Shown in pieces: positions 17,520 through 32,464 of a DNA stretch of 64,000 nucleotides (position 1 is the stretch's first letter; every line of letters starts with the position of its first letter). Source of the DNA: Streptomyces mobaraensis NBRC 13819 = DSM 40847 (lineage in GTDB: Bacteria > Actinomycetota > Actinomycetes > Streptomycetales > Streptomycetaceae). Both the position numbers and the translations under genes were made by a program. The notes below the pieces were generated by a model. The model did not search any database. It worked only from the letters and a program-made list of their open reading frames with translations, and was not told where the DNA came from. The stretch spans positions 4,737,501-4,801,500 of the forward strand of contig NZ_CP072827.1 of assembly GCF_017916255.1 (NCBI RefSeq), written 5' to 3'.

Positions 17520-17604
17520 TACTGCCTCCGGTGGGGGGAGAGTTGAAACGGTGAGTGGGGGGTATCGCTGTGAAGGAGGGGGGTGCCGGCCGGTGCGCTG
17601 AGGA

Positions 17605-17629
17605 TGGTCCAGACCAATCCATCCGTCAA
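17605..17629 (-). promoter_or_regulatory. Chitinase promoter with DasR-like (dre) operator
   Basis: TGGTCCAGACCA (17605-17616) differs at one base from the core of the DasR consensus TGGTCTAGACCA and matches the repeat classically found in Streptomyces chitinase promoters. On the minus strand it lies just downstream of TTGACG (17629-17624), so a bound repressor would occupy the -35/-10 spacer, 86 bp before the start codon. DasR senses glucosamine-6-phosphate; binding here is inferred. Confidence 0.8.
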
Positions 17630-17674
17630 GGGGAGGCGCGGAGGGGGCTGGTCGCGTGTGGCTGCGGCGCGTTT

Positions 17675-17865
17675 CCGTTCGGAAACGGGTGCGCGGCAGA
17701 TCTCGGTCCGGAGAAGGGGCGGGCGGCGGGTTCCCGCCCGGAAGCGGGCGTTCGTCGGGCCCCCGTTCGGGAAACGGCGCCCGGCGGGCCTCCATTCGGA
17801 CAAGGTGCGCGGCGGGTCCCGTTCGGAGAACGGGCATGCGGCAGGTCTCCGTTCGGAAAGGGACC
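17675..17865. repeat. Seven degenerate 27-30 bp tandem units
   Basis: Units begin near 17675, 17705, 17735, 17763, 17793, 17820 and 17849 with a core like CCGTTCGGAAACGGGTGCGC. Each core can fold (CCGTTCGG, CGTTTCCG/CGGAAACG). The array fills much of the roughly 500-bp gap between the chitinase promoter and the next gene. Unit lengths vary by non-multiples of three, so it is not coding. Confidence 0.75.
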
Positions 17866-18023
17866 GGGGGGACTGGAGGGGCGGGAAGCGAGGCGGACCG
17901 GGCGGGTTCGAAGGAACTGTTCCGAGCCGCTCCGTTCGTGGATAAAGTGCGGGGCGCCGGCGTGTGCGGGGCACCGGCGCCGAGCAGGGTCGATCCATGG
18001 CCGCCGGGGCGCCGGAGGCAGGA

Positions 18024-18872
18024 GTGGACGGGGATTCGGACGTGCCGATTGCGATAGCCGTCACCAGCCCCGACCTGGTGCTGCCCGCCCCCGACGGCCC
18101 GGCGCCGACCGCGGCCGTCCTCCAGCCGCCCGAGGCGCAGCCGCTGGAGACCGCGGTGGCCCAGGCGTCCGTCCTGCTCGACCAGTGCGGCCACCTGGTC
18201 GTCGTCCACTCCGACGCCCTGCCCGCCGCGTACGTCCGCCGGCTGCACACCGTCCGCGCGGTCCTGGAGAGCGAACGGATCGCCCTGCTGCCCGTCGCCC
18301 TGCCGCCGCTGGCGGTCGGCGTCCTGGCCCGCCAGTTACGCCAGCTGTCCCTCTCCGACCTGGGCCCCGGAGTCCTCGCCTCCGCCACCCGCCTCCTCGC
18401 CCACTACATCTACGCCGGCGCCCAACTGGCCAGCGTCGCCCGCTTCGACCGGGTGCCGGTCGGCCTCGGTCCGCACCTCACCTCACTGCTCCCCGGCGTC
18501 CGCTTCGGCGTCCTCGTCAACCCGGCGCCCCGCCTCGTCCGCCCTGGTGGTGACGGCGTTCCCGGCCCCGCCTACCCGACCCGGCTGACCGTGGCCCGCG
18601 AGGGCCCCCGCCGGGCCGAGGACTGGGTGACGGACGTCCTCGCCCCGGAGTGGCGCGTCGAAGGGGTCCAGGAGGTGTCACCACTGCCCGCGGAGTCCGT
18701 CCACTGGTGGGGCACCCGGCGCGCGGTGGAGTTCGCCGCAGCCATCCCCGACCCGTCGATCCTCTACCAACTGATCTCCTCTGTCCGGCGGGAGGAGTGC
18801 CGGTGGTGCGGGCTCGAACTCATCGGCGACCGATGCGGGTTCTGTGCGGCCGGTGGGGAGGCTGTGGCGTGA
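18024..18872 (+). CDS. Unknown protein with C-terminal Cys4 knuckle, upstream of tad genes
   Basis: Encodes 282 aa from GTG 18024 (GGAGG 5 nt upstream); GTG 17964, ATG 17997 and GTG 18042 are alternatives. I do not recognise a named family. The body is Leu/Val/Pro-rich without a signal peptide or clear TM. The C-terminus has CRWCGLELIGDRCGFC, two CxxC pairs suited to zinc. Codon 105 is TTA (18336-18338), rare in Streptomyces and read by the bldA tRNA. It precedes cpaB by about 300 bp in the same direction, so a role with the pilus locus is plausible but inferred only from position. Confidence 0.8.
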   Translation: MDGDSDVPIAIAVTSPDLVLPAPDGPAPTAAVLQPPEAQPLETAVAQASVLLDQCGHLVVVHSDALPAAYVRRLHTVRAVLESERIALLPVALPPLAVGVLARQLRQLSLSDLGPGVLASATRLLAHYIYAGAQLASVARFDRVPVGLGPHLTSLLPGVRFGVLVNPAPRLVRPGGDGVPGPAYPTRLTVAREGPRRAEDWVTDVLAPEWRVEGVQEVSPLPAESVHWWGTRRAVEFAAAIPDPSILYQLISSVRREECRWCGLELIGDRCGFCAAGGEAVA

Positions 18873-19179
18873 GGGGCCGGTTCCGAGGGTCTTCTGAGAT
18901 CGCTCGAAGGGGCGCGTCCCGCCGGAACGTCCCACTCCGGGCCGTCCATCGGCGTACCGTCGCAGCCCCGGGACCAGGCGCCGCCCGCCCGCCGGATCCG
19001 CCGGGGACGCGTGGTACGCCGGGGGATCCGGCGCCGCACGGGACCACCGGCGCGTACGCACCGCCCTCCGCTCAGGGAACGGCCGGCGGTGGGCGGCCCC
19101 CTGGCCCACCGGCCGTCGCCGCTTCCGTGGAACCGCCGAGCCGCCGCACCCCAACCGAGCCAGTGAGGTCCGCCGCACC
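18873..19179. other. 307-bp intergenic region before cpaB
   Basis: No convincing gene, strong hairpin or palindrome is seen. It presumably contains the promoter of the tad operon. The Shine-Dalgarno before cpaB is weak (GTGAGG, about 11 nt from the ATG). Confidence 0.5.
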
Positions 19180-19941
19180 ATGAACTCACGCCAGCGACGC
19201 GGGATCATCCTCCTGCTCCTGTCGGTCCTCTGCGCCGTGGGAGCGGCCGCCGGGGTGTACGCGGTCGTGGACGACGCCGAGTCGAAGGTCGGTCCGGAGG
19301 TCACCGCCTACCGGCTGCGGTTCGACGTCGCTGCCTACCGGGCGCTGGACGAGGGACAGTTCGAGAAGGTGTCGATGCCCAGACGGTGGCTGCCCGCCAC
19401 GGCCGTCACACATCTCGCCGAGGTGCGCGGCAAGATCGCCGTGACTCCGCTCCGCAGGGGATCGCTGCTGCAGAGCGACATGATCGTCAACCGGCCCGCC
19501 CTCGCCCCCGGGCAGCAGGAGATCGCCATCATGATCGACGCGGCCACCGGTGTGGCCGGCAAGATCACGCCCGGCTCGAAGGTCAACATCTACGCCACCT
19601 TCGACGGAAGGAGCGGGACGGCCGGCGGCACCGGCAAGGACGCCAAGGACGCGAACCCCCAGCCGGTGTCGAAGGTCATCGTCAGCGGCGCCCAGGTCAT
19701 CGAGGTCGGCAGGCTCACCCCTCTCGACGGCCGGAGCGGCGGCGCCCGGACCGGCGCGTCCGGCACCCGGCAGGCGGGCGACGCCGTGCCGATCACCTTC
19801 GCCCTGGACACGAAGGACGCGCAACGCGTCGCGTACGCCGAGTCGTTCGCGACCCATGTGCGGCTGGCCCTGGTGGCGCCGGGCGACGACACCGGCGTCA
19901 GCGGCTCCGACCGCACGTACACCCTCGACGGCGACAAGTAG
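19180..19941 (+). CDS. cpaB: Flp pilus assembly protein CpaB/RcpC (SAF domain)
   Basis: Encodes 253 aa. An N-terminal membrane anchor (MNSRQRRGIILLLLSVLCAV) leads into a SAF-like region (RRWLPATAV, VTPLRRGSLLQSDM, where antifreeze/AFP-like domains of CpaB reside) and the RcpC-type beta domain (ITPGSKVNIYATF). In Tad systems CpaB is an envelope protein needed for pilus biogenesis. A Gly/Thr/Ala-rich insert around residues 140-205 is longer than in many homologues. First gene of the tad gene set; followed 16 bp later by the CpaE fusion. Confidence 0.88.
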   Translation: MNSRQRRGIILLLLSVLCAVGAAAGVYAVVDDAESKVGPEVTAYRLRFDVAAYRALDEGQFEKVSMPRRWLPATAVTHLAEVRGKIAVTPLRRGSLLQSDMIVNRPALAPGQQEIAIMIDAATGVAGKITPGSKVNIYATFDGRSGTAGGTGKDAKDANPQPVSKVIVSGAQVIEVGRLTPLDGRSGGARTGASGTRQAGDAVPITFALDTKDAQRVAYAESFATHVRLALVAPGDDTGVSGSDRTYTLDGDK

Positions 19942-19957
19942 ACGGGGGACGTTCCCG

Positions 19958-21721
19958 GTGACCATCCGCATCCTCCCGGCCCTCGCGGACCCGGAGACCG
20001 CCCGGACCGTCGGCGGGCTCCTCGCCCAGCTCCCCGGCGTCGAACCGCTGCGTACCGTCGGGGACTCGACGGCCCTCCTCGACGCCCTCGCCGTACTGGG
20101 TGCCGCCTCGGTCTCCGGCCTTCCCGAGGTCGTCCTCGTCCACGAACGGCTGGGGCCCGCCCCCGCCCTCGAAGTCGTCCGGGAGGTGGCCCTCCGCTTC
20201 CCCGCCACCGGCGTCGTCCTCCTCTCCGCCGACGCCGGGCCCGCGCTGTACGCCGCCGCCATGGACTGCGGCGCCCGCGGCCTCGCCGCGCTCCCACCCT
20301 CCCCCGACGAACTCGGCGCCCGCGTCCAGGCCGCCGCCCACTGGGCCACCGGCGTCCGCCGCCATCTGGACGCGGGCCCGGGCGGTCCGGCGGGCGGCGG
20401 GGCCGGGGCCGACGGGCGGCTCGTCGCCGTCGTCGGCGCCAAGGGGGGCGTCGGGACGACCGTCGTGGCCGTGCAACTCGCCCTCGCCGCACGGTCCGCC
20501 GGGCACGAGGTGGCCCTCGTCGACATGGACCTCCAGTCCGGCGACGTCGCCTCCTATCTGGACGTCCGCTTCCGGCGGTCCGTCGCCGACCTGGCCGGCA
20601 TCAGCGACATCTCGCCCCGCGTCCTCGAGGACGCCGTCTTCCCGCACCCCACCGGGCTCGGCCTGCTCCTCGCCCCGGCCGAGGGCGAACGCGGCGAGGA
20701 GATAGGCGACCCCGCCTCCCGCCAGATCACGGCGGCACTGCGCCGCCGCTACCCGCTCGTCGTCGCCGACTGCGGTACGCAGATCACGGCGGCGGGCGCG
20801 GCCGTCATCGAGACGGCCGACCTCGCCCTGCTGGTCACCACGCCCGACGTGGTGTCCGTACGGGCCGCCAAACGCATGGTCCGGCTGTGGGACCGGCTCC
20901 GGATCCGCAAGGCGGAGGACACCATGACCGTCGTCAACCGGCACACCCGCGGCGCCGAGGTGCAGCCGCCGCTCGTCGCCCGGACCACGGGGACGCGGGT
21001 GGCCCGTACCGTCGTCCCGGCCGCGTACAAGGAGTTGCGGGCGGCCGTCGACTCCGGCCGGATGCAGGACCTGGACGCCCGGTCGGGGGTCCGGCAGGCG
21101 CTGTGGGCGCTCGCCGGCGAACTCGGACTGGCCGCGCCCGCGCCTGGGGCCCGGCCCGGCGGCCCGCGCCGGCACCGGGCGCTGGGGGCGGGGGATTCCG
21201 TGACGGGAGGTTCCGTGACGGGTGGGTCTGTGGCGGGAGGGCCTGTCACGGGAGGGCCTGGAGGTACGGCTGCTACCGGAGGGGCGGTCGGTTCCGAGGC
21301 GGCGACGGGCGGGGGGACGGGCCCGGACCGGCTCACCCCCGTCCCCGCGCCCTCACCGTTCCGACGGTTCCGCAGGTGGGGAGGGGACCGGGGGCAGGTC
21401 GCCGTCGAGTTCGCCGGGATCTTCCCTATGATCCTCGTCGCCCTGGCGGTGGTCTGGCAGTGCGTGCTGGTCGGCTACACCTACTCCCTCGCCGGGCACG
21501 CCGCGGACCGCGCGGCCCGCGCCGGAGCGGTGGGCCGCGACTGCGCGGAAGCCGCCCGCGCCGACCTGCCGGGGGAGTGGCGCACCGGCTCGATCGACTG
21601 CGGCCGGGAGGGCGACGTCTACAAGGCGACGGTGAAGCTGAAGGTGCCCGTGCTGGTACCGGACGCGGTCGACTGGCCGTGGGCGGTGGGCGGCACGGCG
21701 GGCGTGGCGCGGGAGGACTGA
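19958..21721 (+). CDS. CpaE/Ssd-like MinD ATPase fused to a TadE-like domain
   Basis: Encodes 587 aa. Residues 1-125 resemble a degenerate receiver domain. Residues about 150-405 form a MinD/CpaE ATPase with deviant Walker A VVGAKGGVGTTVV (near 161) and LVDMDLQSGD. A Gly/Thr linker of four 15-nt repeats (S/P-V-T-G-G, residues 414-433) follows. The C-terminus, from DRGQVAVEFAGIFPMILVAL (about 476), is a complete TadE-like domain: one TM plus a Cys-containing exterior part. CpaE helps localise Tad assembly, while TadE is a pseudopilin-like membrane protein; they are usually separate. No stop codon lies between them. GTG start after GGGGGA. In-frame GTG codons inside the repeat follow GGGAGG and might initiate TadE separately. 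Confidence 0.88.
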   Translation: MTIRILPALADPETARTVGGLLAQLPGVEPLRTVGDSTALLDALAVLGAASVSGLPEVVLVHERLGPAPALEVVREVALRFPATGVVLLSADAGPALYAAAMDCGARGLAALPPSPDELGARVQAAAHWATGVRRHLDAGPGGPAGGGAGADGRLVAVVGAKGGVGTTVVAVQLALAARSAGHEVALVDMDLQSGDVASYLDVRFRRSVADLAGISDISPRVLEDAVFPHPTGLGLLLAPAEGERGEEIGDPASRQITAALRRRYPLVVADCGTQITAAGAAVIETADLALLVTTPDVVSVRAAKRMVRLWDRLRIRKAEDTMTVVNRHTRGAEVQPPLVARTTGTRVARTVVPAAYKELRAAVDSGRMQDLDARSGVRQALWALAGELGLAAPAPGARPGGPRRHRALGAGDSVTGGSVTGGSVAGGPVTGGPGGTAATGGAVGSEAATGGGTGPDRLTPVPAPSPFRRFRRWGGDRGQVAVEFAGIFPMILVALAVVWQCVLVGYTYSLAGHAADRAARAGAVGRDCAEAARADLPGEWRTGSIDCGREGDVYKATVKLKVPVLVPDAVDWPWAVGGTAGVARED

Positions 21722-21724
21722 ACG

Positions 21725-22507
21725 GTGGCGGGGGGCATCGGGGTGTGGGCGATGCCGTTTTCGCGGTATTGGGGGGAGCCGGACCGCTTCCGGGCGCGGG
21801 TGTGCGTGTGGGCGCGGGCGCAAGTGTGCGTGTGGGCGCAGGCGCGGGCCGGGGCCGTGCGGGCCTTCCGGGGTGGGACGGCGGGAGAGTGGGCAGGCTT
21901 CCGGGCCGGGGCGGTGCGTGGCCCCTCCCGGGTGGGGGCAGCGCGTGGCCCCTCCCGAATCGGGCCGGTGCGTGGCTCCTCCCGAATCGGGCCGGTGCGT
22001 GGCTCCTCCCGGGCCGGGGCGGCGCGCGGTCCCCGCCGGCCGGCAGCCGACCGCGGCTCCGCCGCCGTCGAGTTCATCGGTTTTCTGCCTGTCCTCCTCC
22101 TCGTGGGTCTGGCCGCGATCCAACTCGGCCTGGCGGCGTTCGCCGCCCAGCAGGCCGGAACCGGCGCCCGCGCCGCCGCCCGCACGGCGACACTCGACGA
22201 ACCCCGCACCACCCCGGAAGCCGCCGCCAGAGCCGCCATGACCGACTGGGTCGCCCGGCGTGCCGACACCGTCCAGGCGCCCCCCTGCGCGCCAGGCACC
22301 ACCGAAGTGACCGCCACGGTGGACGTCGCCGTCCCCGGCCTCCTCCCCGGCACCGGCTTCCACGTCACCCGGCACGCCACCATGCGCTGCCCGGATGACA
22401 CGCGCGCCCCCGGCGGCGTGCCGGCCGGGCTTTCCGCGTCCCAAGAGCCCCATGCACTTCCTGAGCCCCCCGTACCCCCTGCACTCCCTCAGAAGGGCCG
22501 CACATGA
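21725..22507 (+). CDS. TadE-like pseudopilin with repetitive N-terminal extension
   Basis: Encodes 260 aa from GTG 21725 (GGGAGGA 7-8 nt upstream). The TadE core starts near residue 107: ADRGSAAVEFIGFLPVLLLV, one TM, then an exterior domain with two Cys (APPCAPG, MRCPDD). The preceding 100 residues are unusual: two 24-nt repeats (VCVWARAQ-type) and five in-frame 27-nt repeats giving nine-residue units such as RIGPVRGSS. Usual TadE proteins have only a short cytoplasmic lead. The stop overlaps the cpaF start (ATGA), indicating coupling. Confidence 0.82.
   Translation: MAGGIGVWAMPFSRYWGEPDRFRARVCVWARAQVCVWAQARAGAVRAFRGGTAGEWAGFRAGAVRGPSRVGAARGPSRIGPVRGSSRIGPVRGSSRAGAARGPRRPAADRGSAAVEFIGFLPVLLLVGLAAIQLGLAAFAAQQAGTGARAAARTATLDEPRTTPEAAARAAMTDWVARRADTVQAPPCAPGTTEVTATVDVAVPGLLPGTGFHVTRHATMRCPDDTRAPGGVPAGLSASQEPHALPEPPVPPALPQKGRT
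21800..22036. repeat. In-frame 24-bp (x2) and 27-bp (x5) coding repeats in the TadE-like gene
   Basis: 24-bp units at 21800-21823 and 21824-21847; 27-bp units at 21902, 21929, 21956, 21983 and 22010. All unit lengths are multiples of three and keep the frame, unlike the intergenic arrays. The third and fourth 27-bp copies are identical, suggesting recent duplication. Confidence 0.8.
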
Positions 22508-24063
22508 GCCTCCGGGCCCGCGTCGCCAGCCCCGAACCGCCCGGCGCGGGGCGGGAGTCGGACCACCTCGTCCCCGTCTACCGCGCCAAGCTGCTGGAGG
22601 AGATCGACCTCGCGGAGATGTCCGCCCTCGCCGCCGCCGAGCGGCGGACGCGGCTGGAACGCGTGCTGGGCCACATCATCAGCCGTGAGGGCCCGGTCCT
22701 CTCCACCGCCGAACGCGACCGCCTCATCCGCCGGGTCGTGGACGAGGCCCTGGGCCTGGGCATTCTCGAACCCCTCCTGGAGGACCCGACCGTCACCGAG
22801 ATCATGGTCAACGGCCCGGACCAGGTGTTCGTCGAGCGCGCCGGCCGCGTCGAGGCCGTCCCCGTGCGGTTCGCCTCCCACGAGCAGCTGATGCAGACCA
22901 TCGAACGCATCGTCTCCACCGTCAATCGCCGCGTGGACGAGTCCAATCCCATGGTCGACGCCCGGCTCCCCAGCGGCGAACGCGTCAACGTCATCATCCC
23001 GCCCCTCGCCCTCAACGGCGCCACCCTCACCATCCGTCGCTTCCCGCGCGTCTACACGCTGCGGGAACTCGTCGGCATCGGCACGCTGGACGAACCGACG
23101 GTGATGCTGCTCGCGGGTTTGGTCCGGGCGAAGTTCAACATCGTCATCTCCGGGCCCACCGGCTCCGGCAAGACCACACTGCTCAATGCCCTCTCCGGCC
23201 TCATCCCGGACGGCGAGCGCGTCATCACCGTCGAGGACGCCGCCGAACTGCAGCTCCAGCAGCCGCATGTGATCCGCCTCGAATCCCGCCCGCCCAACGT
23301 GGAGGGCAAGGGCCGGATCACCATCCGGGACCTGGTGCGCAACTCCCTGCGCATGCGTCCCGACCGCATCATCGTCGGCGAGGTCCGGGGCGGCGAGACC
23401 CTCGACATGCTCCAGGCCATGTCCACCGGCCACGACGGCTCCCTCGCCACCGTCCACGCCAACAGCGCCGAGGACGCGCTGATGCGGCTGCGCACGCTGG
23501 CCTCCATGTCGGAGGTCAAGATCCCCTATGAGGCGCTGCGCGACCAGATCGACAGCGCGGTGGACTGCGTCGTCCAGCTCACCCGCACCGCCGACGGGGC
23601 GCGTCGCATCAGCGAGGTGGCGCTCCTGGACGCGTACGCGCCCCAGGGGCGGCCCGGTGCTCTCGCCGAGCGGGCCGCCGCCGGGGCGCGGACCGCCGTC
23701 GGACACCGTCTCTCCACCGTGGTCCGCTTCGACGCGCTGCCCATGGGCCCGGACCGCGTCGTCCGCGGCACGTTCGCCCACTTCCCGCTGCCCGAGCGGG
23801 CCGTCGGCCGGCTGCGCCTGGCCAACGAGCCGGTTCCCCAGGCGTTCGGAGTCGCCGCGCCGCCCGGCACCGCCACCGGACCACGCGCCGCGGGCCGCCA
23901 CGCCGGACGGCCCGCGGCCGGCGAAGGGGTCCCGGCCGGTGAGGAAGGCGCGTACGGCGCGGGGGCTGCCTACGGAGCGAAGGCTGCCTACGGCGAAGTG
24001 GCCGGGTACGGGGAGGGGCCCGGGTACGGGGAGGGGGCCGCGGAAGCCGAACGGAACCCCTAG
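22504..24063 (+). CDS. cpaF: Tad/Flp pilus secretion ATPase CpaF (TadA)
   Basis: Encodes 519 aa. Type II/IV secretion ATPase powering pilus polymerisation at the inner face of the membrane. Motifs: VTEIMVNGPDQVFVER (N-terminal domain), Walker A ISGPTGSGKTTLLNAL (about residues 216-231), Asp box VEDAAELQL, Walker B DRIIVGEVRGGE, His box GSLATVHANSAEDAL. Beyond about residue 440 it carries a tail rich in Gly/Ala/Tyr with repeated AYG/GYGEG units (15-nt periodicity at about 23950-24040), absent from typical CpaF. Starts within the stop of the preceding gene. Confidence 0.95.
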   Translation: MSLRARVASPEPPGAGRESDHLVPVYRAKLLEEIDLAEMSALAAAERRTRLERVLGHIISREGPVLSTAERDRLIRRVVDEALGLGILEPLLEDPTVTEIMVNGPDQVFVERAGRVEAVPVRFASHEQLMQTIERIVSTVNRRVDESNPMVDARLPSGERVNVIIPPLALNGATLTIRRFPRVYTLRELVGIGTLDEPTVMLLAGLVRAKFNIVISGPTGSGKTTLLNALSGLIPDGERVITVEDAAELQLQQPHVIRLESRPPNVEGKGRITIRDLVRNSLRMRPDRIIVGEVRGGETLDMLQAMSTGHDGSLATVHANSAEDALMRLRTLASMSEVKIPYEALRDQIDSAVDCVVQLTRTADGARRISEVALLDAYAPQGRPGALAERAAAGARTAVGHRLSTVVRFDALPMGPDRVVRGTFAHFPLPERAVGRLRLANEPVPQAFGVAAPPGTATGPRAAGRHAGRPAAGEGVPAGEEGAYGAGAAYGAKAAYGEVAGYGEGPGYGEGAAEAERNP

Positions 24064-24223
24064 TGGGGCGATCTCCGGGACGCGTCCGGGCCGTCTCAGG
24101 GTTCGCCCGAGGCCGCCTCTTGGGAAGACCCACCAGGACACCGGCGACGACCGCCGCCGCACCCACGACCGTACGGACCAACGGCCATGGAAGGTCAAGG
24201 AAGGCCATGGAAGGCGACCGCAC

Positions 24224-25168
24224 ATGAACGACACCCTCACGCTCCTCACCCTGGGCATCACCCTGTTGTGCGGCACACTCGCCGTCGCCGGAGTACGGAC
24301 GTACCTGGCCGGCCGGGAGCGGCAGGCCGCACTCGCCGAACGCCTCGCCGATCCAGGGGAGCCGTCCCGCTCCACCGCCCGTTCCCGGCCCTTACGCCGC
24401 TTCGACCGCGCGGTGCGCGGGACCCGCCCGGGCAGACGGCTGGAGCGGCGCATCGCCGCCACCGGGCTCGGTATCGCGCCGGGCGACTTCCTGCTGTGGA
24501 CCGGCGCCGCGGCCGTCGTCCTGTGGGCCGTGGCAGCTCTCGCCCTGGCCCCGTTCTTCGGGCCGCTCGCCGCGGTGGTGGCCGTCTGGACGGCGTTCGC
24601 CTTCCTGGGGCGGCAACGCCGCAAACGCATCGAGAAGTTCATCAACCAGCTCCCCGAGCTGGCCCGCATCCTCGCCAACGCCACCCAGGCGGGCCTCGCC
24701 CTGCGCACGGCGCTCGGCATGGCGGCGGAGGAGATGGACGCTCCCGCGCGGGAGGAACTGTCCGCCGTGGCCGACCGGTTGGCCGTCGGCCACTCCGTCG
24801 ACGAGGCCCTCGCCGAACTCGCCGACCGGCTGCCCTCCCGTGAGCTCGGCGTGCTCGTCACCACGCTGGTCCTCTCCCATCACGCGGGCGGATCGGTCGT
24901 CCGCTCCCTGCGCAACCTCACCGAGACGCTGGAGGAACGGAAGGAGACCCGACGGGAGGTCCGGACCCAGCTGTCCCAGGTGACCGCCACGGCATACGTC
25001 GTCCCCCTGATGGGCGTCGGCACGCTCTTCCTCCTGGACCGCATCGCTCCCGGCTCCATCGACCGTATGACGGGCACCGCTCTCGGACAGCTCACGGTGA
25101 TCGGCGCCTTCGCGCTCTACGGCGTCGGCTTCTTCCTCATACGCCGCATGTCCCGCATCGACATCTGA
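24224..25168 (+). CDS. tadB: Tad pilus inner-membrane platform protein TadB
   Basis: Encodes 314 aa of the T2SSF/GspF-like platform family. N-terminal TM, basic cytoplasmic segment, two TMs (FLLWTGAAAVVLWAV and following), the conserved cytoplasmic helix bundle FINQLPELARILANATQAG...RTALGMAAEEM, and a C-terminal TM pair. ATG 24224 with GGAAGG upstream; the family N-terminus fits. Codon 57 is TTA (24392-24394), so translation should need the bldA-encoded tRNA-Leu(UUA). It works with TadC to anchor CpaF and the growing Flp fibre. Preceded by a 160-bp gap after cpaF. Confidence 0.92.
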   Translation: MNDTLTLLTLGITLLCGTLAVAGVRTYLAGRERQAALAERLADPGEPSRSTARSRPLRRFDRAVRGTRPGRRLERRIAATGLGIAPGDFLLWTGAAAVVLWAVAALALAPFFGPLAAVVAVWTAFAFLGRQRRKRIEKFINQLPELARILANATQAGLALRTALGMAAEEMDAPAREELSAVADRLAVGHSVDEALAELADRLPSRELGVLVTTLVLSHHAGGSVVRSLRNLTETLEERKETRREVRTQLSQVTATAYVVPLMGVGTLFLLDRIAPGSIDRMTGTALGQLTVIGAFALYGVGFFLIRRMSRIDI

Positions 25169-25319
25169 GCCCCACCCGCCTTCACCTCCCACTCAACGCA
25201 CACCGAAGTCCCTCCGCATCCCCGCCCACCTGCCGCCCCACTCCGGCCCACCCAGCCCCACCCACTCCCCACGCGCACGCACCATCCACCACGCCCCCCC
25301 ACGACCCGAGGAGACGGAC
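25169..25319 (+). other. C-rich, G-poor spacer between tadB and tadC
   Basis: About 150 nt of CCCACCC/CCCCGCCCACC-type sequence with few G residues on the coding strand. No ORF. An unstructured C-rich RNA of this kind resembles a Rho-loading region, so it could attenuate transcription inside the operon. Ends at the tadC ribosome site GAGGAG. Confidence 0.55.
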
Positions 25320-26207
25320 ATGGGCCTGCTGATCGCTCTCCTGGCCGGCGCGTCCGTGACCGGCCTCTGTTACGGCGTCGCCCTCTGGCGCAGCGAGGCC
25401 AGACTTCCCCCGGACCTCGCCGTCGCCCTGGAGGTCGGAGCCACCCGCACCACCGCCGTCGGATCGGCCGTCGACCGCCTCGGCATGCGGTGGGCCCCGC
25501 TCGTGCTGCGGCTGATGGGACCGCGCCGCGTGGCCCGGATCCGTACGCGGATCGACCGCGCGGGCAACCCGGGCGGCCTCACCGTCGACCGCTACGCGGC
25601 CCGCCGCGCGGTGTACGGGGCCCTGGGGTTCGGTGGCGCGCTTGTCATGCTGGTCGAGGGGCGGCTGCTGATAGCCGCGTTGCTCGTCGCCTTCGGGCTG
25701 TTCTGGATCGAGGTGGGCATCTGGGCCGCCGTCCGGGAGCGACGGACCGCGATCGAACGTACGCTCCCCGACTTCCTCGACGTCCTCGCGGTCGTCGTCA
25801 GCGCCGGGCTGAGTTTCCGGCAGGCCCTCGACCGGGTCGCCGAACGGTACGAGGGCCCGTGGGCGGACGAACTGCGCATCGCGCTGCGGCAGATGGACAT
25901 GGGCGTCAGTCGCCGGGACGCCTTCGACGGGCTGCGCCGGCGGAACGACTCCGAACAGGTCGCCCAGTTCGTGTCGGCCCTCCAGCAGGGCGAGGAACTG
26001 GGCTCGCCCATCGTGGACACGCTCATGGACATAGCCGCCGACATGCGCCGCACCGACGCACAGAACGCCCGCCGCAGGGCGGCCCGCGCGGTCCCCAAGG
26101 CCACGGTCGTCATCACCACGTTCATGGTCCCCGGCACGCTGGCGCTGATGATCGCCGGGTTCTTCCTCGGCTCGGGCGTGGACTTCGGAACGGTGTCGGG
26201 CCGATGA
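25320..26207 (+). CDS. tadC: Tad pilus inner-membrane platform protein TadC
   Basis: Encodes 295 aa. Second T2SSF-like platform protein: N-terminal TM (MGLLIALLAGASVTGLCYGV), two central TMs around residues 98-135, the conserved LPDFLDVLAVVVSAGLSFRQAL helix, QFVSALQQGEELGSPI, and a C-terminal TM (TTFMVPGTLALMIAGFFLG). Start supported by GAGGAG six nt upstream. Partner of TadB. Confidence 0.93.
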   Translation: MGLLIALLAGASVTGLCYGVALWRSEARLPPDLAVALEVGATRTTAVGSAVDRLGMRWAPLVLRLMGPRRVARIRTRIDRAGNPGGLTVDRYAARRAVYGALGFGGALVMLVEGRLLIAALLVAFGLFWIEVGIWAAVRERRTAIERTLPDFLDVLAVVVSAGLSFRQALDRVAERYEGPWADELRIALRQMDMGVSRRDAFDGLRRRNDSEQVAQFVSALQQGEELGSPIVDTLMDIAADMRRTDAQNARRRAARAVPKATVVITTFMVPGTLALMIAGFFLGSGVDFGTVSGR

Positions 26208-26506
26208 GACCGGTGCGGTGGGTGGGAGGCCGGGCGGGGGCCCGTGCGGAGGAGTTCCGCCAATTCTCTTCGCTTCTGCAACCGACTGTGGGACAGTCAT
26301 CGCCCGAAGGCACCTCGACAGTGGGACGCGGAGCTGGACGGGAGTGGTGCGCGTGACGCCGGCGAATGCCCAACTCCCCTGCGAAAGAGGGAATAAGAGG
26401 CACGCACACTGTCCCGCGTCCGGTGTTCGGGCGTACGTTTCCCCTGCGACGACCGGCCGGTCCGGACGCCACCCGCAGCGCCCGGCCACGCGTGGAGGGG
26501 ATGGGA
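26208..26506. other. flp upstream region with GACTGT-GGG-ACAGTC palindrome
   Basis: About 300 bp without a gene. A perfect 6-3-6 palindrome lies at 26284-26298, with a partial copy GACAGTGGGAC near 26317. Probably a separate promoter/control region for the pilin gene, which must be made in large excess over assembly proteins. Function inferred. Confidence 0.45.
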
Positions 26507-26668
26507 ATGGGGAAGCGCTTCTGGGAGGACGACCGGGGGCAGACCTCGGTGGAGTACCTGGGCATCATCGCCGTCGTGGTGGCGATCGTGCTCGTCCTCA
26601 CGACGACGGACTTCGGCACGGTGATCGCAAAAGCGATCATGGATCAGATCCAAAAAATTGCCAAGTGA
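26507..26668 (+). CDS. flp: Flp-type pilin prepilin
   Basis: Encodes 53 aa. After a short basic/acidic leader MGKRFWEDDRG comes the class IVb/Flp motif: predicted cleavage after Gly11, then QTSVEYLGIIAVVVAIV with Glu at +5 and Tyr at +6 of the mature chain, a hydrophobic helix, and a short C-terminus. ATG 26507 is preferred over ATG 26501 because GGAGGGG is then 6 nt away. The A24 peptidase at 31724-32464 is the likely processing enzyme. The stop overlaps the next start (GTGA). Confidence 0.93.
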   Translation: MGKRFWEDDRGQTSVEYLGIIAVVVAIVLVLTTTDFGTVIAKAIMDQIQKIAK

Positions 26669-27315
26669 CCCAGGGGTCCGCACCGTTCGGCCCGCCGGTC
26701 GGCGGACGCGACGCGGGCCAGGCGTTCCCCCTGTACATCGTGGCGATCGCCGGGTTCCTGTTCGTCGCCCTCGCCGTCTTCGCCGTCGGCATGGCGGGAG
26801 CCGCCAGGAACGGCACCCGGTCCGCCGCCGACGCCGCGGCCCTCGCCGCCGCCCAGGACTACCGGGAGCAGTCCTACACCGGCTTCCTCCGGGACCTCGT
26901 CGCCCGGCCGGGCGGCGACTGGCGGCGCTGGTTCGACGGTCGCGGCGACGCCCCCGCCACCGCCTGCCGCGAAGCGGAACGCCTCGCCCGCGACAACGCC
27001 GCCGGTCTCACCGGCCCCGGCTGCGCAGCGGCCCCCGGGCCCGACCCCACGACGCTCGCCTTCGACGTCACCGTCACTACCCGCGACGGCATCGGCATGT
27101 CCGTCGTCCCCGGCACCGAAGACGTCCACCCCACCGTCAGCTCCCGCGCCGTCGTCACCCCCCGCTGCCGCCCCGCCCCGGGCGGGGACGCCGGCGCCCC
27201 GTACGCCCGGTTCGACTGCGACGACGGACCGCTGACCGTCGACCCCGCCCACCCCGACCCCCGGCTCACGGCACGCACCCTCTTCGCCGTCCGCCTCGCC
27301 GCCACCGACCGATGA
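26665..27315 (+). CDS. TadG-like / Tad-associated membrane protein
   Basis: Encodes 216 aa. Begins GTG within the flp stop (4-bp overlap), so coupled. N-terminal DAGQAFPLYIVAIAGFLFVALAVFAV resembles the TadE/TadG-type N-terminal TM, followed by GAARNGTRSAADAAALAAAQ, typical of the TadG-like N-terminal region. The exterior part contains four Cys. Likely a minor pseudopilin or assembly component. Confidence 0.85.
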   Translation: MTQGSAPFGPPVGGRDAGQAFPLYIVAIAGFLFVALAVFAVGMAGAARNGTRSAADAAALAAAQDYREQSYTGFLRDLVARPGGDWRRWFDGRGDAPATACREAERLARDNAAGLTGPGCAAAPGPDPTTLAFDVTVTTRDGIGMSVVPGTEDVHPTVSSRAVVTPRCRPAPGGDAGAPYARFDCDDGPLTVDPAHPDPRLTARTLFAVRLAATDR

Positions 27316-27340
27316 CCCCACGAGCGGAGGAACGCCACCC

Positions 27341-27922
27341 ATGAGCACAGGGCGCCGAAACCCCCGGGCCGTGCTGCCGGTGTCGCTCGCCATCGCCGCG
27401 GTGCTCGCCCTCTCCGGCTGCGGAGGCGACGGCGACGGCGGTGGCGACGAGCGGAACGCGTCGGGCCGGCCGACCGCCGCGGACACCGGAGAACCCGAGC
27501 CCGAAAGCCAGGCGAAATCCTCGTCGTCCCGACCACTGGGGGAAATGCGCAACGGCGACGGAATCGTCGTGACCATCACCTCCGCCGCCCGGGAGGGCGG
27601 CGGGTTCGTCACCGTCCAGGGAACCGTCACCAACCACGGCACCAAAATGTTCAACGCCTTGGAATGGCGGTCCAAGGAAACCGACGTGAGATCCCAGTCC
27701 GCCGTCTCGGGCGCCACCCTCGTCGACACCAAGGGAAAGAAGCGCTACCTCGTCCTCCGGGACACCGACGGCCAGTGCCTGTGCAGCACCGGCCTGACAG
27801 GGATCAAACCGCAGGAGTCCCGGCCCCTTTTCGCCCAGTTCCCCGCGCCACCCGCCGACGTCTCCCAGGTCGACTTCCAGATCCCCACCATGCCCACCGT
27901 CCGCATCGCGCTCTCGGGATGA
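27341..27922 (+). CDS. Secreted lipoprotein of the tad cluster
   Basis: Encodes 193 aa. Signal peptide with lipobox LSGC at about residues 24-27, then an acidic Gly/Ser/Glu-rich linker and a beta-rich domain (VTITSAAREGGGFVTVQGTVTNHG) resembling DUF4352-like immunoglobulin modules; CLCST near the C-terminus may be disulfide-bonded. GGAGG upstream. Three bp from the OmpA-like gene, so the two are coexpressed. Confidence 0.83.
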   Translation: MSTGRRNPRAVLPVSLAIAAVLALSGCGGDGDGGGDERNASGRPTAADTGEPEPESQAKSSSSRPLGEMRNGDGIVVTITSAAREGGGFVTVQGTVTNHGTKMFNALEWRSKETDVRSQSAVSGATLVDTKGKKRYLVLRDTDGQCLCSTGLTGIKPQESRPLFAQFPAPPADVSQVDFQIPTMPTVRIALSG

Positions 27923-27925
27923 GCC

Positions 27926-28558
27926 GTGACCCGCCCTCAGCCGACACCGCCCGCCCGCCGCCACCGGCCGATCGCCGCGGCCGTCCTCACGGCGGCCGCC
28001 CTCCTCGCCGCCACACCGGCCCCCGCCCACGCCGCCGGCCCCGGCGACCCGGCCCGCAGCGAACCCCCCGTCAAGTTGGACGCCCACGCCCCCGGACTCA
28101 AACTGCGCAAGGGGGCGAAGCTCGCCCCCGGCCGCGTCCTCGACATCAAATCCGTCATCGAGACCGGCAACGGCAGCGAACGCCGCGTGGACACCAATGT
28201 GAACGTCACCTTCGCCCTCCAGGCCGAAGTCCTCTTCGACAAGGACAGTTCGTCTCTCAACAGCGCCGCCGCCCAACGCATAAAGACCATCGCCGACGAA
28301 GCACGCAACCAACACGCCACCACCCTGCGCGTCTTCGGATTCACCGACAACCTGGGATCCGCCGACCACGGAATAGCCCTGTCCAAAGAACGCGCCAACG
28401 CCGTACAGCGCCAACTCGCCAAAGAACTCGGCTCCTCCTCGATCTCCTACCAGATCCGCGGCTACGGCGAGGACTACCCCATCGCCGACAACGCCACGGA
28501 GGACGGCCGCCGCAAAAACCGCAGGGTCGAGGTCAGCTTCCCCCGCCAAGGACGGTGA
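27926..28558 (+). CDS. OmpA-like peptidoglycan-binding secreted protein
   Basis: Encodes 210 aa. Sec signal peptide (AAAVLTAAALLAATPAPAHA) and a C-terminal OmpA domain: ALQAEVLFDKDSSSLNSAA, VFGFTDNLGS, LSKERANAVQRQL, GYGEDYPIADN, KNRRVEV. The Asp and Arg that grip meso- or LL-diaminopimelate (TDNLGS Asp; NRRVEV Arg) are present. In a monoderm it would act in the cell wall, perhaps anchoring the pilus apparatus. GTG start, 3 bp after the lipoprotein gene. Confidence 0.9.
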   Translation: MTRPQPTPPARRHRPIAAAVLTAAALLAATPAPAHAAGPGDPARSEPPVKLDAHAPGLKLRKGAKLAPGRVLDIKSVIETGNGSERRVDTNVNVTFALQAEVLFDKDSSSLNSAAAQRIKTIADEARNQHATTLRVFGFTDNLGSADHGIALSKERANAVQRQLAKELGSSSISYQIRGYGEDYPIADNATEDGRRKNRRVEVSFPRQGR

Positions 28559-28696
28559 ACACCCCGCACCACGACCCCGCACCGAGATCATTCCTCTGAG
28601 GCGCGGATCACTGCCCCACCCTCCCCGGAACCACCGCGTCCGCCACTAGGTTGACCGATACCGCCTGACAGCGCCGACAGTCCCCGAGGAGGCCGC

Positions 28697-29818
28697 ATGA
28701 CCCGCGCCCGCACCGCCGACCTCCTCGACACCCAGGCCCGCGCCTGCGCCGAAATGGACTCCCCCCTCTACGCCACACTCCTCACCCGCGCCGCCCAGGA
28801 CGTCCGCGACGGCGGACCCTGCGCTGACGCCGTGGCCCCTCTGGAAGGCGCGCCGGGCCCGGCCGCCGTCGGACTCCGCCTGATGGGCGCGGTCCACGCG
28901 CTCGTCCTGCTCGGCGAAGCACCGGACCTGGCCGCCCACTACTCCACGGCGGGCGGCACCGCCGACGACCCCGACGCGGCGTGGGAACCGTTCCGGCGCG
29001 CCGTCGCCGACCACCCCGAGCACATCACCGCCTGGATGCGCCGCCCACCCCAGACCAACGAGGTCGGCCGCGCGAACATGCTGATCAGCGGCCTGCTCGT
29101 CACGGTCACCGCCCTCGCGACCCCCGAACCACCCCCCGTCCGGCTGCTCGAACTCGGCACCAGCGGCGGCCTGAACCTCCGCGCCGACCGCTTCCGCGTC
29201 ACCGCCGGCGACCCGGCGACACCCCGCTTCTCCTGGGGAGACCCCGACTCGCCCGTCGTCCTCGACGGCGCCTGGAGGGACGGCACCCCGCCACCCCGGA
29301 TCGCCGACGCCGCGGCCCGTGTCCCCGCCCTGGACGTCGTCGAACGCCTCGGCTGCGACGTCGACCCGCTGGACCCCCTCGACCCCGCCGACGCCCTCGC
29401 CCTCCGCGCCTACGTCTGGCCCGACCACCCGGCCCGCCCCACCCGGCTCTCCGGGGCCATCGACCTGGCCCGACGGCTGCCCGCCCGCGTCCTCGGCCAG
29501 GCCGCGGCCGACTTCCTGGCCGGCACCGACCTCCGCCCCGGCACCCTCACCGTCGTCTGGCACTCCGTGATGCGCCAGTACGTACCACCCGCGGAATGGG
29601 CCCGGGTGGAGACGGAGCTCGCCCGGCTGCGCACGGCCGCGACCGGGCCGCAGACGGGCTGGTTCGCCCACCTCGCGTTCGAACCGCGGCGCATCGGGGA
29701 CACCCACCGGTTCGTCCTCACCGCACGCCTCGGCGACGGCCCGGAAGAGGTCCTGGCCGAGGCCCATCCCTGGGGCCTCGACGCCCGCGCCTGCGAGGTC
29801 ACCTCCCTCACCCCCTGA
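28697..29818 (+). CDS. DUF2332 domain protein
   Basis: Encodes 373 aa of the actinobacterial DUF2332 family. Contains LLELGTSGGLNLRADRF, reminiscent of a methyltransferase-type SAM loop, and WHSVMRQYVPPAEW near residue 290. Soluble, no signal. GAGGAGG gives a clear start. The function of the family is unknown. It follows the tad accessory genes after a 138-bp gap and probably has its own promoter (TTGACC at about 28652). Confidence 0.9.
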   Translation: MTRARTADLLDTQARACAEMDSPLYATLLTRAAQDVRDGGPCADAVAPLEGAPGPAAVGLRLMGAVHALVLLGEAPDLAAHYSTAGGTADDPDAAWEPFRRAVADHPEHITAWMRRPPQTNEVGRANMLISGLLVTVTALATPEPPPVRLLELGTSGGLNLRADRFRVTAGDPATPRFSWGDPDSPVVLDGAWRDGTPPPRIADAAARVPALDVVERLGCDVDPLDPLDPADALALRAYVWPDHPARPTRLSGAIDLARRLPARVLGQAAADFLAGTDLRPGTLTVVWHSVMRQYVPPAEWARVETELARLRTAATGPQTGWFAHLAFEPRRIGDTHRFVLTARLGDGPEEVLAEAHPWGLDARACEVTSLTP

Positions 29819-29908
29819 AACCGCCCCGTCGGGATCTCGCCAACCACCGCCGCCACGCGGCAGGATGGGACTTTCGAAAGCCCTGGTGGCGAATGAGGGG
29901 GGCGGTAC

Positions 29909-31195
29909 GTGACGGGCGGTACGAGGCGGTCGGCACGGAAGGGGACCCGCGCCCTGCGACTGGCCCTCGCCGGGGGAGCGCTCGTCACGCCGATGGCCCC
30001 CGCGGCCGCCGCACCCGCCGGGACGGGAAGCGCCGGACCGCCGGCCGCCTACCGGACGGCCCCCGACGCACAGGAGATCCACGGAGCACTAACCACCACG
30101 GCCACCCCACCCCTCGTACCGAGCGGCCGCACGGCGACGGACACCATCGCCCCGGGCGAGCGCAAGTTCTACGCCGTCCGCCTGGACGGCACCTCCGACG
30201 CCTACGTCTCCGCGGTCGCCGCCCCCCGCCCGGGCGGCACCCCCGGACTCCGCGACGGCATCGACGTATCGCTGCGACGCGCCGACGGCATCCCCTGCGG
30301 ACCCTCCCGCCACCGCTCCTTCCTCGCCGAGGGCGGTGCCTACCCCCTCGCCGACCACGCCGAACGCCTCGCGGGAACGGGCGGCCCCTGCGCGGCGGCC
30401 GGCACCTACCACTTCGTCGTGGCCCGGGGCGACGCCGACGGCGGTGACTCCACACCCGTCGCCCTGGAACTCACCGCCGTCACCCACCACCCGCCGGTCA
30501 CACCCAACTTCACGGCACCGCCGGGCACATGGGCCTCCGAACCTCCGTCGGAACCTGCCGGACCGGCGAAGGGCATCACCGGAGGCCGCGGATTCAACGA
30601 CGCGGCCGACGTCCGGACGGGCACCTGGAAGGACACGATCCGCCCGGGGGAGACCCGCTTCTACCGGACCCCGGTCACCACCGGCCACCAGCTGTTCGCG
30701 AAAGCGACGTTCGGCGACGCCCCGGGACACGTCCCCTATGTCGCCAACGGCGTCCGCATGGGCCTGAACGACGCCGCGCGCGGCCATGTGACGAACCGGA
30801 CGGACGGCTACCAGGGCCGCGCCGTCACCGTCCCCCTCGCCGCACCGCCGCCGGGACGGGACACGGGACCCGAAGGCTGGTACTACCTCCAGGTCAGCCT
30901 GAACGGCAAAGCGGGGCAAGGGAGGTCGGAAGCGGTGCCCATCACGCTCGTGGTCACCACGGCCCCGGCCCGGAGCGCGCCGACGGGCCCGCCCGGCCCC
31001 CGCACCCACCGCGCCCCCGACGGCGCGGCCCTCCGCACCGCTGCCGCCTCCCCGGAACCGGACGGACGCTTGAAAGCCGTCGGCTACGCGGGCGTCGGCA
31101 CAGGAACGGCACTCCTCCTGGGCCTCGGCGGCTGGTACCTGGCGGCCCGCCGACCGGAGCCTCGCAGACCGGAGCCTCGCAGACCGGTGGTGTGA
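29909..31195 (+). CDS. Secreted, C-terminally anchored protein with two PPC-like beta modules
   Basis: Encodes 428 aa. Signal peptide (LRLALAGGALVTPMAPAAAA), then two related modules each opening TI-x-PGE-x-x-FY (TIAPGERKFYAV and TIRPGETRFYRT), like bacterial pre-peptidase C-terminal domains. A Pro/Ala/Thr linker leads to one TM (VGTGTALLLGLGGWYLAA) and the basic repeat RRPEPRRPEPRRP. No catalytic motif seen. Topology suggests a surface protein tethered to the membrane. Converges with the DUF192 gene after 13 bp. Role unknown; possibly linked to the pilus locus. Confidence 0.8.
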   Translation: MTGGTRRSARKGTRALRLALAGGALVTPMAPAAAAPAGTGSAGPPAAYRTAPDAQEIHGALTTTATPPLVPSGRTATDTIAPGERKFYAVRLDGTSDAYVSAVAAPRPGGTPGLRDGIDVSLRRADGIPCGPSRHRSFLAEGGAYPLADHAERLAGTGGPCAAAGTYHFVVARGDADGGDSTPVALELTAVTHHPPVTPNFTAPPGTWASEPPSEPAGPAKGITGGRGFNDAADVRTGTWKDTIRPGETRFYRTPVTTGHQLFAKATFGDAPGHVPYVANGVRMGLNDAARGHVTNRTDGYQGRAVTVPLAAPPPGRDTGPEGWYYLQVSLNGKAGQGRSEAVPITLVVTTAPARSAPTGPPGPRTHRAPDGAALRTAAASPEPDGRLKAVGYAGVGTGTALLLGLGGWYLAARRPEPRRPEPRRPVV

Positions 31196-31208
31196 GCCGC
31201 GAACCGCC

Positions 31209-31589
31209 CTACCCGGGCCCGGATACGACGGGTCGAATCCGCACGCGCGCCCCTGCGCGCAGCCCCCATCGCGCCATGGCCCCGGCCGCCGACTCCAGCA
31301 CATGGCGGGCCGTCGGCCGGGGTCGGCCCAGACGGTGCGGAGACATGGTGCGCACGGCGAGCACCCGCATGTCCCGGCTCAGGTATGCGACGTCGATCGG
31401 GAACCGCATCCCGAAGGTGTGCACCGAACCGGCCGGGGTGAGCAGCATGACGCCCTCGATCCCGTCCCGCCCGAGCAACCCGCGCGTCCGCGCCCGATAG
31501 GAGGCGGCAACCTCCACCGGAACCGCCGGGGCCCCGCACTCCGCGGATTCGACGGTGAGGTGAGTGAAGCCGTCCATCCATGCTGGCAC
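31209..31589 (-). CDS. DUF192 family protein
   Basis: Encodes 126 aa from GTG 31589 (GGAGGGG upstream; ATG 31577 is the alternative). Family motifs: RTRGLLGRDG, the CxxF-like position replaced by HTFGMRFPIDVAYL, and LESAAGAMARWGLRAG at the C-terminus. DUF192 proteins are small beta-rich proteins of unknown function, frequently beside prepilin peptidase or tad genes in actinobacteria. Divergent from the A24 peptidase across about 135 bp. Confidence 0.9.
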   Translation of the reverse strand: MPAWMDGFTHLTVESAECGAPAVPVEVAASYRARTRGLLGRDGIEGVMLLTPAGSVHTFGMRFPIDVAYLSRDMRVLAVRTMSPHRLGRPRPTARHVLESAAGAMARWGLRAGARVRIRPVVSGPG

Positions 31590-31723
31590 CGCAACGCCCC
31601 TCCGCCTGGGCAGAACTCGACCAATCAGCCTTCCGGGTAGCCAAGTTATCCACATTCGACGGGGCGTCCACAGCTTTCGCGGGGATCGCCCCATCTTCTC
31701 GCCGGGCTCCGTAATCTCGCCGC

Positions 31724-32464
31724 ATGAACTGGTTGTTGATCGCGCTGGTGGCATCGGCCACCCTCTACGGAACCCTGGCCGGCACGCTGGTGCCCGGCGC
31801 CCGCTACCGGCTGTCGGTCGAACCGGACGAGCCCTGGCGGACAGCCGCTCCCTGCGGCCACGCGCTCGGCGGTGGAATCGGGCGGGGGTGGTGTGCGGCG
31901 TGCGGGAGGACGAGATACGGCCCGGGGGCGCTGTGGCAGGTCGGAGCGACGGCCATGGTGTGCGCGGCGACGGCCGCGGCGGTCGGCCCACGACCCGAAC
32001 TCTGTGTCTGGCTGCTGGCGATACCGGTGGGCGTGGTGCTCACGGGAGTGGACTGGGCGGTGCACCGGTTACCGGACGTCCTGACGCTGCCCCTGGCCGC
32101 GGGCACCGCCGCACTGCTCGGAGTGGCCGCCCTGTTGCCGGCGTCCGCCGGCAGCTGGACCGGATCCCTGCTCGGGGGCCTGACGCTCGGCGGCGCCTAC
32201 CTCCTGCTGTTCCTGGCACACCCGGCCGGGATGGGGTTCGGCGACGTCAAACTCGCCGCGGGCCTGGGCTGCGCTCTGGGCTGGTACGGCTGGGGTGTGC
32301 TGATACTCGGCGGCCTCGCGGGGCTGCTGCTCGGTTCGGTGTACGGCATCGCGCTGATGCTCACCCGCGGCGCGGGACGCGGCACGACCATGCCCCTAGG
32401 CCCCTTCCTGCTCGCCGGAGCCTGGCTGGCCCTCCTGGCGGGCGGATGGTCGGCGCGGCCCTGA
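31724..32464 (+). CDS. A24 prepilin peptidase (TadV/PilD-like)
   Basis: Encodes 246 aa. Aspartyl membrane protease that cleaves Flp prepilin. The two catalytic Asp are visible: Asp110 in GVDWAVHRLPDVL and Asp174 in the GFGDVKLA signature. About six to seven TMs. The N-terminal loop keeps PCGH and WCAAC cysteines, a partial version of the zinc motif of long PilD enzymes. Codon 116 is TTA (32069-32071), six residues after the first catalytic Asp, so full-length enzyme should need the bldA tRNA. Sits 4.5 kb from flp, its probable substrate. Confidence 0.92.
   Translation: MNWLLIALVASATLYGTLAGTLVPGARYRLSVEPDEPWRTAAPCGHALGGGIGRGWCAACGRTRYGPGALWQVGATAMVCAATAAAVGPRPELCVWLLAIPVGVVLTGVDWAVHRLPDVLTLPLAAGTAALLGVAALLPASAGSWTGSLLGGLTLGGAYLLLFLAHPAGMGFGDVKLAAGLGCALGWYGWGVLILGGLAGLLLGSVYGIALMLTRGAGRGTTMPLGPFLLAGAWLALLAGGWSARP

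Follow-up and report, generated by a model that had tools for sequence, protein, structure and literature searches.

The window analysed here, a stretch of 64,000 nucleotides from Streptomyces mobaraensis NBRC 13819 = DSM 40847, harbors between positions 18024 and 32464 a locus which, judged from its gene content, encodes a Tad/Flp pilus, and three genes of this locus carry the rare leucine codon TTA. All of the genes described below lie on the forward strand, and their identities were assigned by profile searches against Pfam and NCBIfam, which recovered a TadA ATPase, two T2SSF platform proteins, CpaB, a TadZ-like protein, a Flp pilin whose match falls just under the curated cut-off, and an A24 peptidase. 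The locus is headed by a gene at 18024-18872, hereafter the leading gene, whose product of 282 amino acids has a predicted DegV/FakB-like fold and a C-terminal CxxC...CxxC arrangement, and which bears TTA at Leu105 (18336-18338). The second TTA codon is Leu57 (24392-24394) of the T2SSF platform protein gene tadB (24224-25168), and the third is Leu116 (32069-32071) of the A24 prepilin peptidase gene (Peptidase_A24, 31724-32464), where it adjoins an Asp residue in an RLPD motif that we take to be catalytic. An earlier note on this DNA had claimed that only three coding sequences of the window have in-frame TTA codons and that each of them belongs to the tad locus or flanks it; base checking together with gene calling bears this out.

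Genes were called by a codon-usage caller trained on the S. mobaraensis genome with TTA set neutral, which returned 50 genes in the window, only the three named above having TTA. The caller made the peptidase gene short (start at 32027) and missed TadE, and both frames were checked separately; no TTA was found in the TadE frame (21725-22507) or in the longer frame at 29909-31195. As a background, 100 evenly spaced 20-kb stretches of the genome (26% of its length) were sampled, in which TTA was present in 26 of 1647 called genes (28 TTA per 547,198 codons); 22 stretches held one TTA gene, two held two, and none held more. The TTA rate climbs as the GC content at third codon positions (GC3) drops, 1 of 539 genes having TTA at a GC3 above 0.96 and 6 of 150 at 0.90-0.92, and the tad genes of the window lie on the low side of GC3. 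Under GC3-specific rates, the expectation for the 14 genes of the locus is 0.45 genes with TTA and the probability of three or more is 0.008, the raw gene rate giving 0.0013, and the chance that all three TTA genes land in 14 of 51 window genes is 0.017; all of these values are post hoc, because the locus was picked for its TTA pattern. TTA is rare in the sampled genes, and the occurrence of three TTA genes in one 14-gene locus is unusual against chance, which is suggestive only. Sequencing errors are unlikely, because all three codons are also present in S. huiliensis (rows L179 and L300). In addition, the statement that TTA is read by the bldA tRNA agrees with the presence in the genome of a bldA-type tRNA-Leu(UAA) gene with the anticodon TAA, which gave the one tRNA-pattern match and was confirmed by ARAGORN, its status as the sole copy resting on one pattern search.

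When 392 genomes of the genus were searched, 390 of them, S. mobaraensis included, had a match to the leading gene (E up to 1e-20); this set is assigned to Streptomyces on the ground that several of its members share identical sequences with named Streptomyces loci. Of 118 genomes drawn evenly from the class, 13 had a match, comprising eight from the same genus (again with S. mobaraensis itself) and five remote ones at 28-34% identity; by these sequence matches, the gene is near-universal in, and nearly restricted to, the genus. Its position is similarly constant, cpaB following directly in 87 of the 88 loci in which the next gene was called (five of the loci being duplicates), with a median gap of 82 nt. 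The AlphaFold model of the leading protein, built from 129 sequences in replacement of a poor 15-sequence model (predicted local distance difference test score, pLDDT, of 53), displays the DegV/FakB fold, and the protein is accordingly predicted to combine this fold with a four-cysteine, zinc-knuckle-like tail. Since no sequence match to the curated DegV/FakB family model was found, nor any Pfam match up to an E value of 1, the protein is described as sharing the predicted fold and is not filed as a member of the family; it differs from the DegV/FakB fatty-acid-binding proteins in its identity of about 12% and in the extra four-cysteine tail. A sequence search of the PDB gave one row only, at E 0.41, and among relatives of the leading protein there were sub-significant Pfam matches to the double zinc ribbon family DZR (6 of 15, best E 0.037) and to three other families.

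The recurrence of TTA was followed in 129 orthologues of the leading gene, of which L294 (no TTA) is a trimmed copy of L210. The loci comprised 80 named ones, the top 80 of 529 when ranked by their match to the protein of the window, 40 further ones picked by peptidase similarity, and another 40 hand-picked from listed rows and hence non-random. Counts of TTA sites were taken from the aligned region, whereas counts of genes and loci (87 loci) were taken from gene calls, some of whose starts lie too far upstream or are fused (L191, L225). TTA occurs in 35 of the 129 orthologues (27 of 89 in the earlier samples, 8 of 40 in the final one), namely in 13 of 18 members of the clade of S. mobaraensis and in 22 of 111 outside it. 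At site 105, the 127 leucine codons consist of 18 TTA, 8 CTA, 27 TTG, 58 CTG and 16 CTC, the remaining two of the 129 sequences having Met, while 21 other conserved leucine columns of the gene hold seven TTA combined and no more than four in any column. A tree built from the leading proteins, and insensitive to synonymous codon differences, requires at least 10 changes to account for TTA105 (8 if one relies on the starred branches only) and at least 23 to account for TTA anywhere in the gene. In the gene calls, TTA is contained in 26 of 87 leading genes, whereas upstream genes matched for GC3 have it in 7 of 228 cases (Fisher p = 1e-10, kinship being ignored in this test), and none was found in the same loci in 82 calls of cpaB (SAF and RcpC domains; cpaB/rcpC at 19180-19941 in the window) or 78 calls of the T2SSE-type ATPase gene tadA/cpaF (22504-24063), both of which also lack TTA in S. 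mobaraensis. The per-codon frequency of TTA in the leading gene is some 13 times the reference level, that of the other A-ending codons 1 to 3 times; moreover, 33 of its 36 TTA codons fall in the first half of the gene, compared with 18 of 28 in the genome sample.

The signal is most concentrated in the clade to which S. mobaraensis belongs, defined as 18 rows including S. huiliensis, S. caatingaensis, S. netropsis and S. klenkii and supported by a value of 99 in the Shimodaira-Hasegawa-like approximate likelihood ratio test (SH-aLRT). TTA105 is present in 12 of the 18, and the leading genes of the clade contain 14 TTA against one CTA; among the rare codons common to at least five of the members, TTA105 is the rarest. 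The retention of the rarest leucine codon in 12 of 18 is notable, not overwhelming. The members L186, L190 and L195, whose leading genes are devoid of TTA, carry it instead at codon 68 of the tadZ/E gene, and L182 combines this codon with a TTA of the leading gene outside site 105. In S. mobaraensis the corresponding frame, a tadZ/cpaE-like ATPase with a TadE-like segment (19958-21721), has no TTA, and 10 of 127 homologous calls have one. Because the four tadZ/E codons stand in one alignment column and the four rows are neighbours on the tree, they would most simply represent one gain, that is, a single hand-over rather than many. In total, TTA is found in the leading gene or tadZ/E of 16 of the 18 clade loci, the two without it being L142 and L181, against 1 of 123 upstream genes of the 17 relatives in the clade.

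Relatives further afield show TTA in other genes as well. A HisKA_3 kinase (36 of 87 loci) and a LuxR-type response regulator (35 of 87) are inserted after tadC, which sets these loci apart from other Tad/Flp loci of Actinobacteria; the arrangement is represented by L202, L206, L208, L210, L214-L216, L226, L227, L238, L239, L245, L251 and L255 and is missing from the window. TTA was found in 9 of 35 of these embedded regulators and 5 of 36 kinases, compared with the same 7 of 228 matched upstream genes, and the regulators have a mean GC3 of 0.87, below the matched control range, so that composition may explain part of the excess. Mapped on the leading-gene tree, the regulator TTA needs at least four changes and the kinase TTA four. 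When whole loci are compared, a tad-locus gene contains TTA in 38 of 87 loci and an upstream flanking gene in 9 of 87, with 10.0 tad genes and 6.9 upstream genes per locus; this count leaves aside the five duplicate loci and those lacking a called leading gene, such as L236, whose kinase contains TTA. TTA is thus frequent in this locus among relatives, and the earlier note's idea of a TTA-bearing tad locus stands in outline; its choice of carrier genes does not, the recurrent signal residing in the leading gene and, in relatives, in tadZ/E and the embedded regulators.

What the analysis establishes is the presence of the three codons and of the tRNA gene, the conserved gene order, the repeated occurrence of TTA in relatives and a fold prediction. 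The reading that we prefer, with a probability of about one half, is that the tad locus begins with a bldA-dependent step, accessory or regulatory in kind, which would delay the pilus. The leading gene stands at the head of the Tad/Flp locus, upstream of cpaB, and TTA at Leu105 would make its translation require the bldA tRNA, provided that TTA limits translation here; if the leading protein is needed for, or regulates, the production of the pilus, the latter would be held back until this tRNA becomes available. In S. mobaraensis and S. huiliensis, the later TTA codons of tadB and the peptidase gene would reinforce this dependence. This reading presumes an action of the leading protein on the pilus and a retention of TTA105 by selection, both of which are inferred. 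A wider version, in which the locus as a whole and not any one gene retains bldA dependence, TTA moving out of the leading gene into tadZ or, in other lineages, into an embedded two-component system, so that at least one gene continues to call for the developmental tRNA, and in which a DegV-fold, possibly lipid-sensing, zinc-tailed protein would be the usual gate of the Streptomyces pilus, is unlikely.

Several observations weigh against a selected bldA-dependent step at the leading gene. TTA is absent from 94 of the 129 orthologues, and in some genomes of the sample (G024, G086, G040 and G090) the leading gene lies on a different contig from the peptidase gene or far away from it. Outside the clade of S. 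mobaraensis, the gene contains 22 TTA and 34 CTA, and an enrichment specific to TTA is not clear there because CTA is also raised. Within the clade, codon identity in distant pairs sharing TTA105 is 0.63, the expectation from usage being 0.47, and synonymous sites are much changed, not saturated. Furthermore, TTA105 is not the only rare codon with a fixed position: of the 18 clade members, 16 share ATA at Ile11 and 12 share TTG at Leu108, and GAA at Glu265 is found in 100 of 129 orthologues, so that codon conservation need not mean bldA.

The raised CTA outside the clade makes relaxed codon usage a serious rival: the leading gene and the embedded regulators would be weakly expressed, their A-ending codons, TTA included, would come and go by drift without selection, and bldA dependence would be incidental. 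We rate this explanation below the preferred reading and as rather unlikely. It fits the GC3 of the leading gene, which averages 0.91 where upstream genes have 0.94, and the still lower value of the embedded regulators; relative to unassigned genes, GTA, ATA, AGA and CTA are about two to three times as frequent in the leading gene, with no rise of AAA and ACA, and CTA matches TTA overall (35 against 36). Most TTA codons are, moreover, poorly conserved according to PMC10327506. On such relaxed usage alone, however, the roughly 13-fold rise of TTA, set against the far smaller rise of the other A-ending codons, would be hard to obtain, as would the scarcity of TTA in upstream genes of matched GC3 and, within the clade, the excess of TTA over CTA with one site kept in most members. 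Relaxed codon usage accounts for part of the signal, and poorly for that of the clade. A constraint on the local DNA or RNA around codons 100-108, such as a binding site or a structure of which TTA105 would be a by-product, appears highly improbable: the clade does share GTA at codon 100 (6 of 18) along with the TTG at codon 108, but CTG, TTG, CTC and CTA are all seen at site 105, and in other rows TTA occupies 13 other alignment columns of the gene.

The earlier note had placed the control elsewhere, proposing that pilus assembly becomes development-dependent at two steps through the TTA codons of tadB and the peptidase gene. Both codons are in frame and shared with S. huiliensis, but among 85 distinct relatives only two, S. 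huiliensis and, in the same column, S. klenkii, have TTA at the tadB site, 76 having the Phe codon TTC, one base away, and TTA at the peptidase site was found in 1 of 47 (S. huiliensis; 49 sequences, one being a truncated duplicate), the other sequences having CTG, CTC, CTT or TTG at Leu116. The absence of TTA from tadB and peptidase orthologues, which that note itself had named as a result that would speak against it, is thus largely what was observed; a general two-step gate is very unlikely, and the idea that TTA generally marks either gene was dropped on account of these low counts. Because the next two relatives (L180/L301 and L181/L302), with TTC at the tadB site and CTG at the peptidase site, lack both, the two codons appear recent and local, though common to two species, and as additions in this species pair they may still act there.

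The preferred bldA-dependent step at the head of the locus has partial parallels in known TTA control, where, as given in Table 2 of PMC4255298 for adpA and other cases, the codon is either kept in orthologues or present in one gene or another of a cluster. Shared with these systems are the rarity of TTA, the special tRNA and, in part, such a retention of the codon; in contrast with adpA, for which the table has TTA in 14 of 14, the leading gene carries it in only about a quarter of its orthologues (35 of 129). As whole words, pilus, pili, tad and Flp are absent from the main text of PMC4255298, and pilus, pili, pilin and Flp from that of PMC10327506; none of the literature matches listed described a Tad pilus controlled through TTA codons or bldA, most subscription papers lying outside their coverage. 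If the reading is true, a near-universal, uncharacterised gene of the genus would tie the bldA switch to a surface pilus. Meanwhile, the case shows that recurrent and local TTA codons can be separated by orthologue counts together with a CTA control.

As for the remaining genes, the locus shares with the Tad/Flp loci of Actinobacteria cpaB, a tadZ-like gene, tadA, tadB, tadC, Flp-like and TadE-like genes and the A24 peptidase gene, and differs from them in the leading gene, nearly restricted to the genus, and in an OmpA-domain gene. The ParA/CpaE-like ATPase and the TadE-like segment of 19958-21721, which form one frame here, are two separate genes in several relatives, and the frame is followed by the separate TadE-like gene mentioned above and by tadA. 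Downstream of tadB come tadC, a platform protein with DUF5936 and T2SSF domains (25320-26207), the Flp-like pilin (26507-26668; it scores 31.2 bits with Flp_Fap, whose cut-off is 32.2), a TadE/G-like minor pilin (26665-27315), a small tad-locus protein labelled tadF2 and devoid of a Pfam family (27371-27922), the OmpA-domain protein (27926-28558), a DUF2332 protein between ompA and the peptidase region (28697-29818), and an uncharacterised protein (29909-31195) whose homologues in two relatives (L143 and L144) contain TTA. A scan of 17500-19300 for sigma-70 promoters and terminators, limited to that promoter type, found none.

A few side observations may be added. Within the leading gene, GTA at Val254 is another rare codon fixed across the relatives, and in its tree L187, titled Streptosporangium nondiastaticum, clusters among Streptomyces next to L139; this record may be misnamed. 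Outside the window, the genome contains a second pair of T2SSF genes at G000:C1:4089929-4091220 (L003 and L004), possibly a second Tad-like locus, and no TTA was found in the flanking DNA examined around it. The OmpA-domain protein sits within the tad locus of a Gram-positive genus, and homologues of it occur in related loci.

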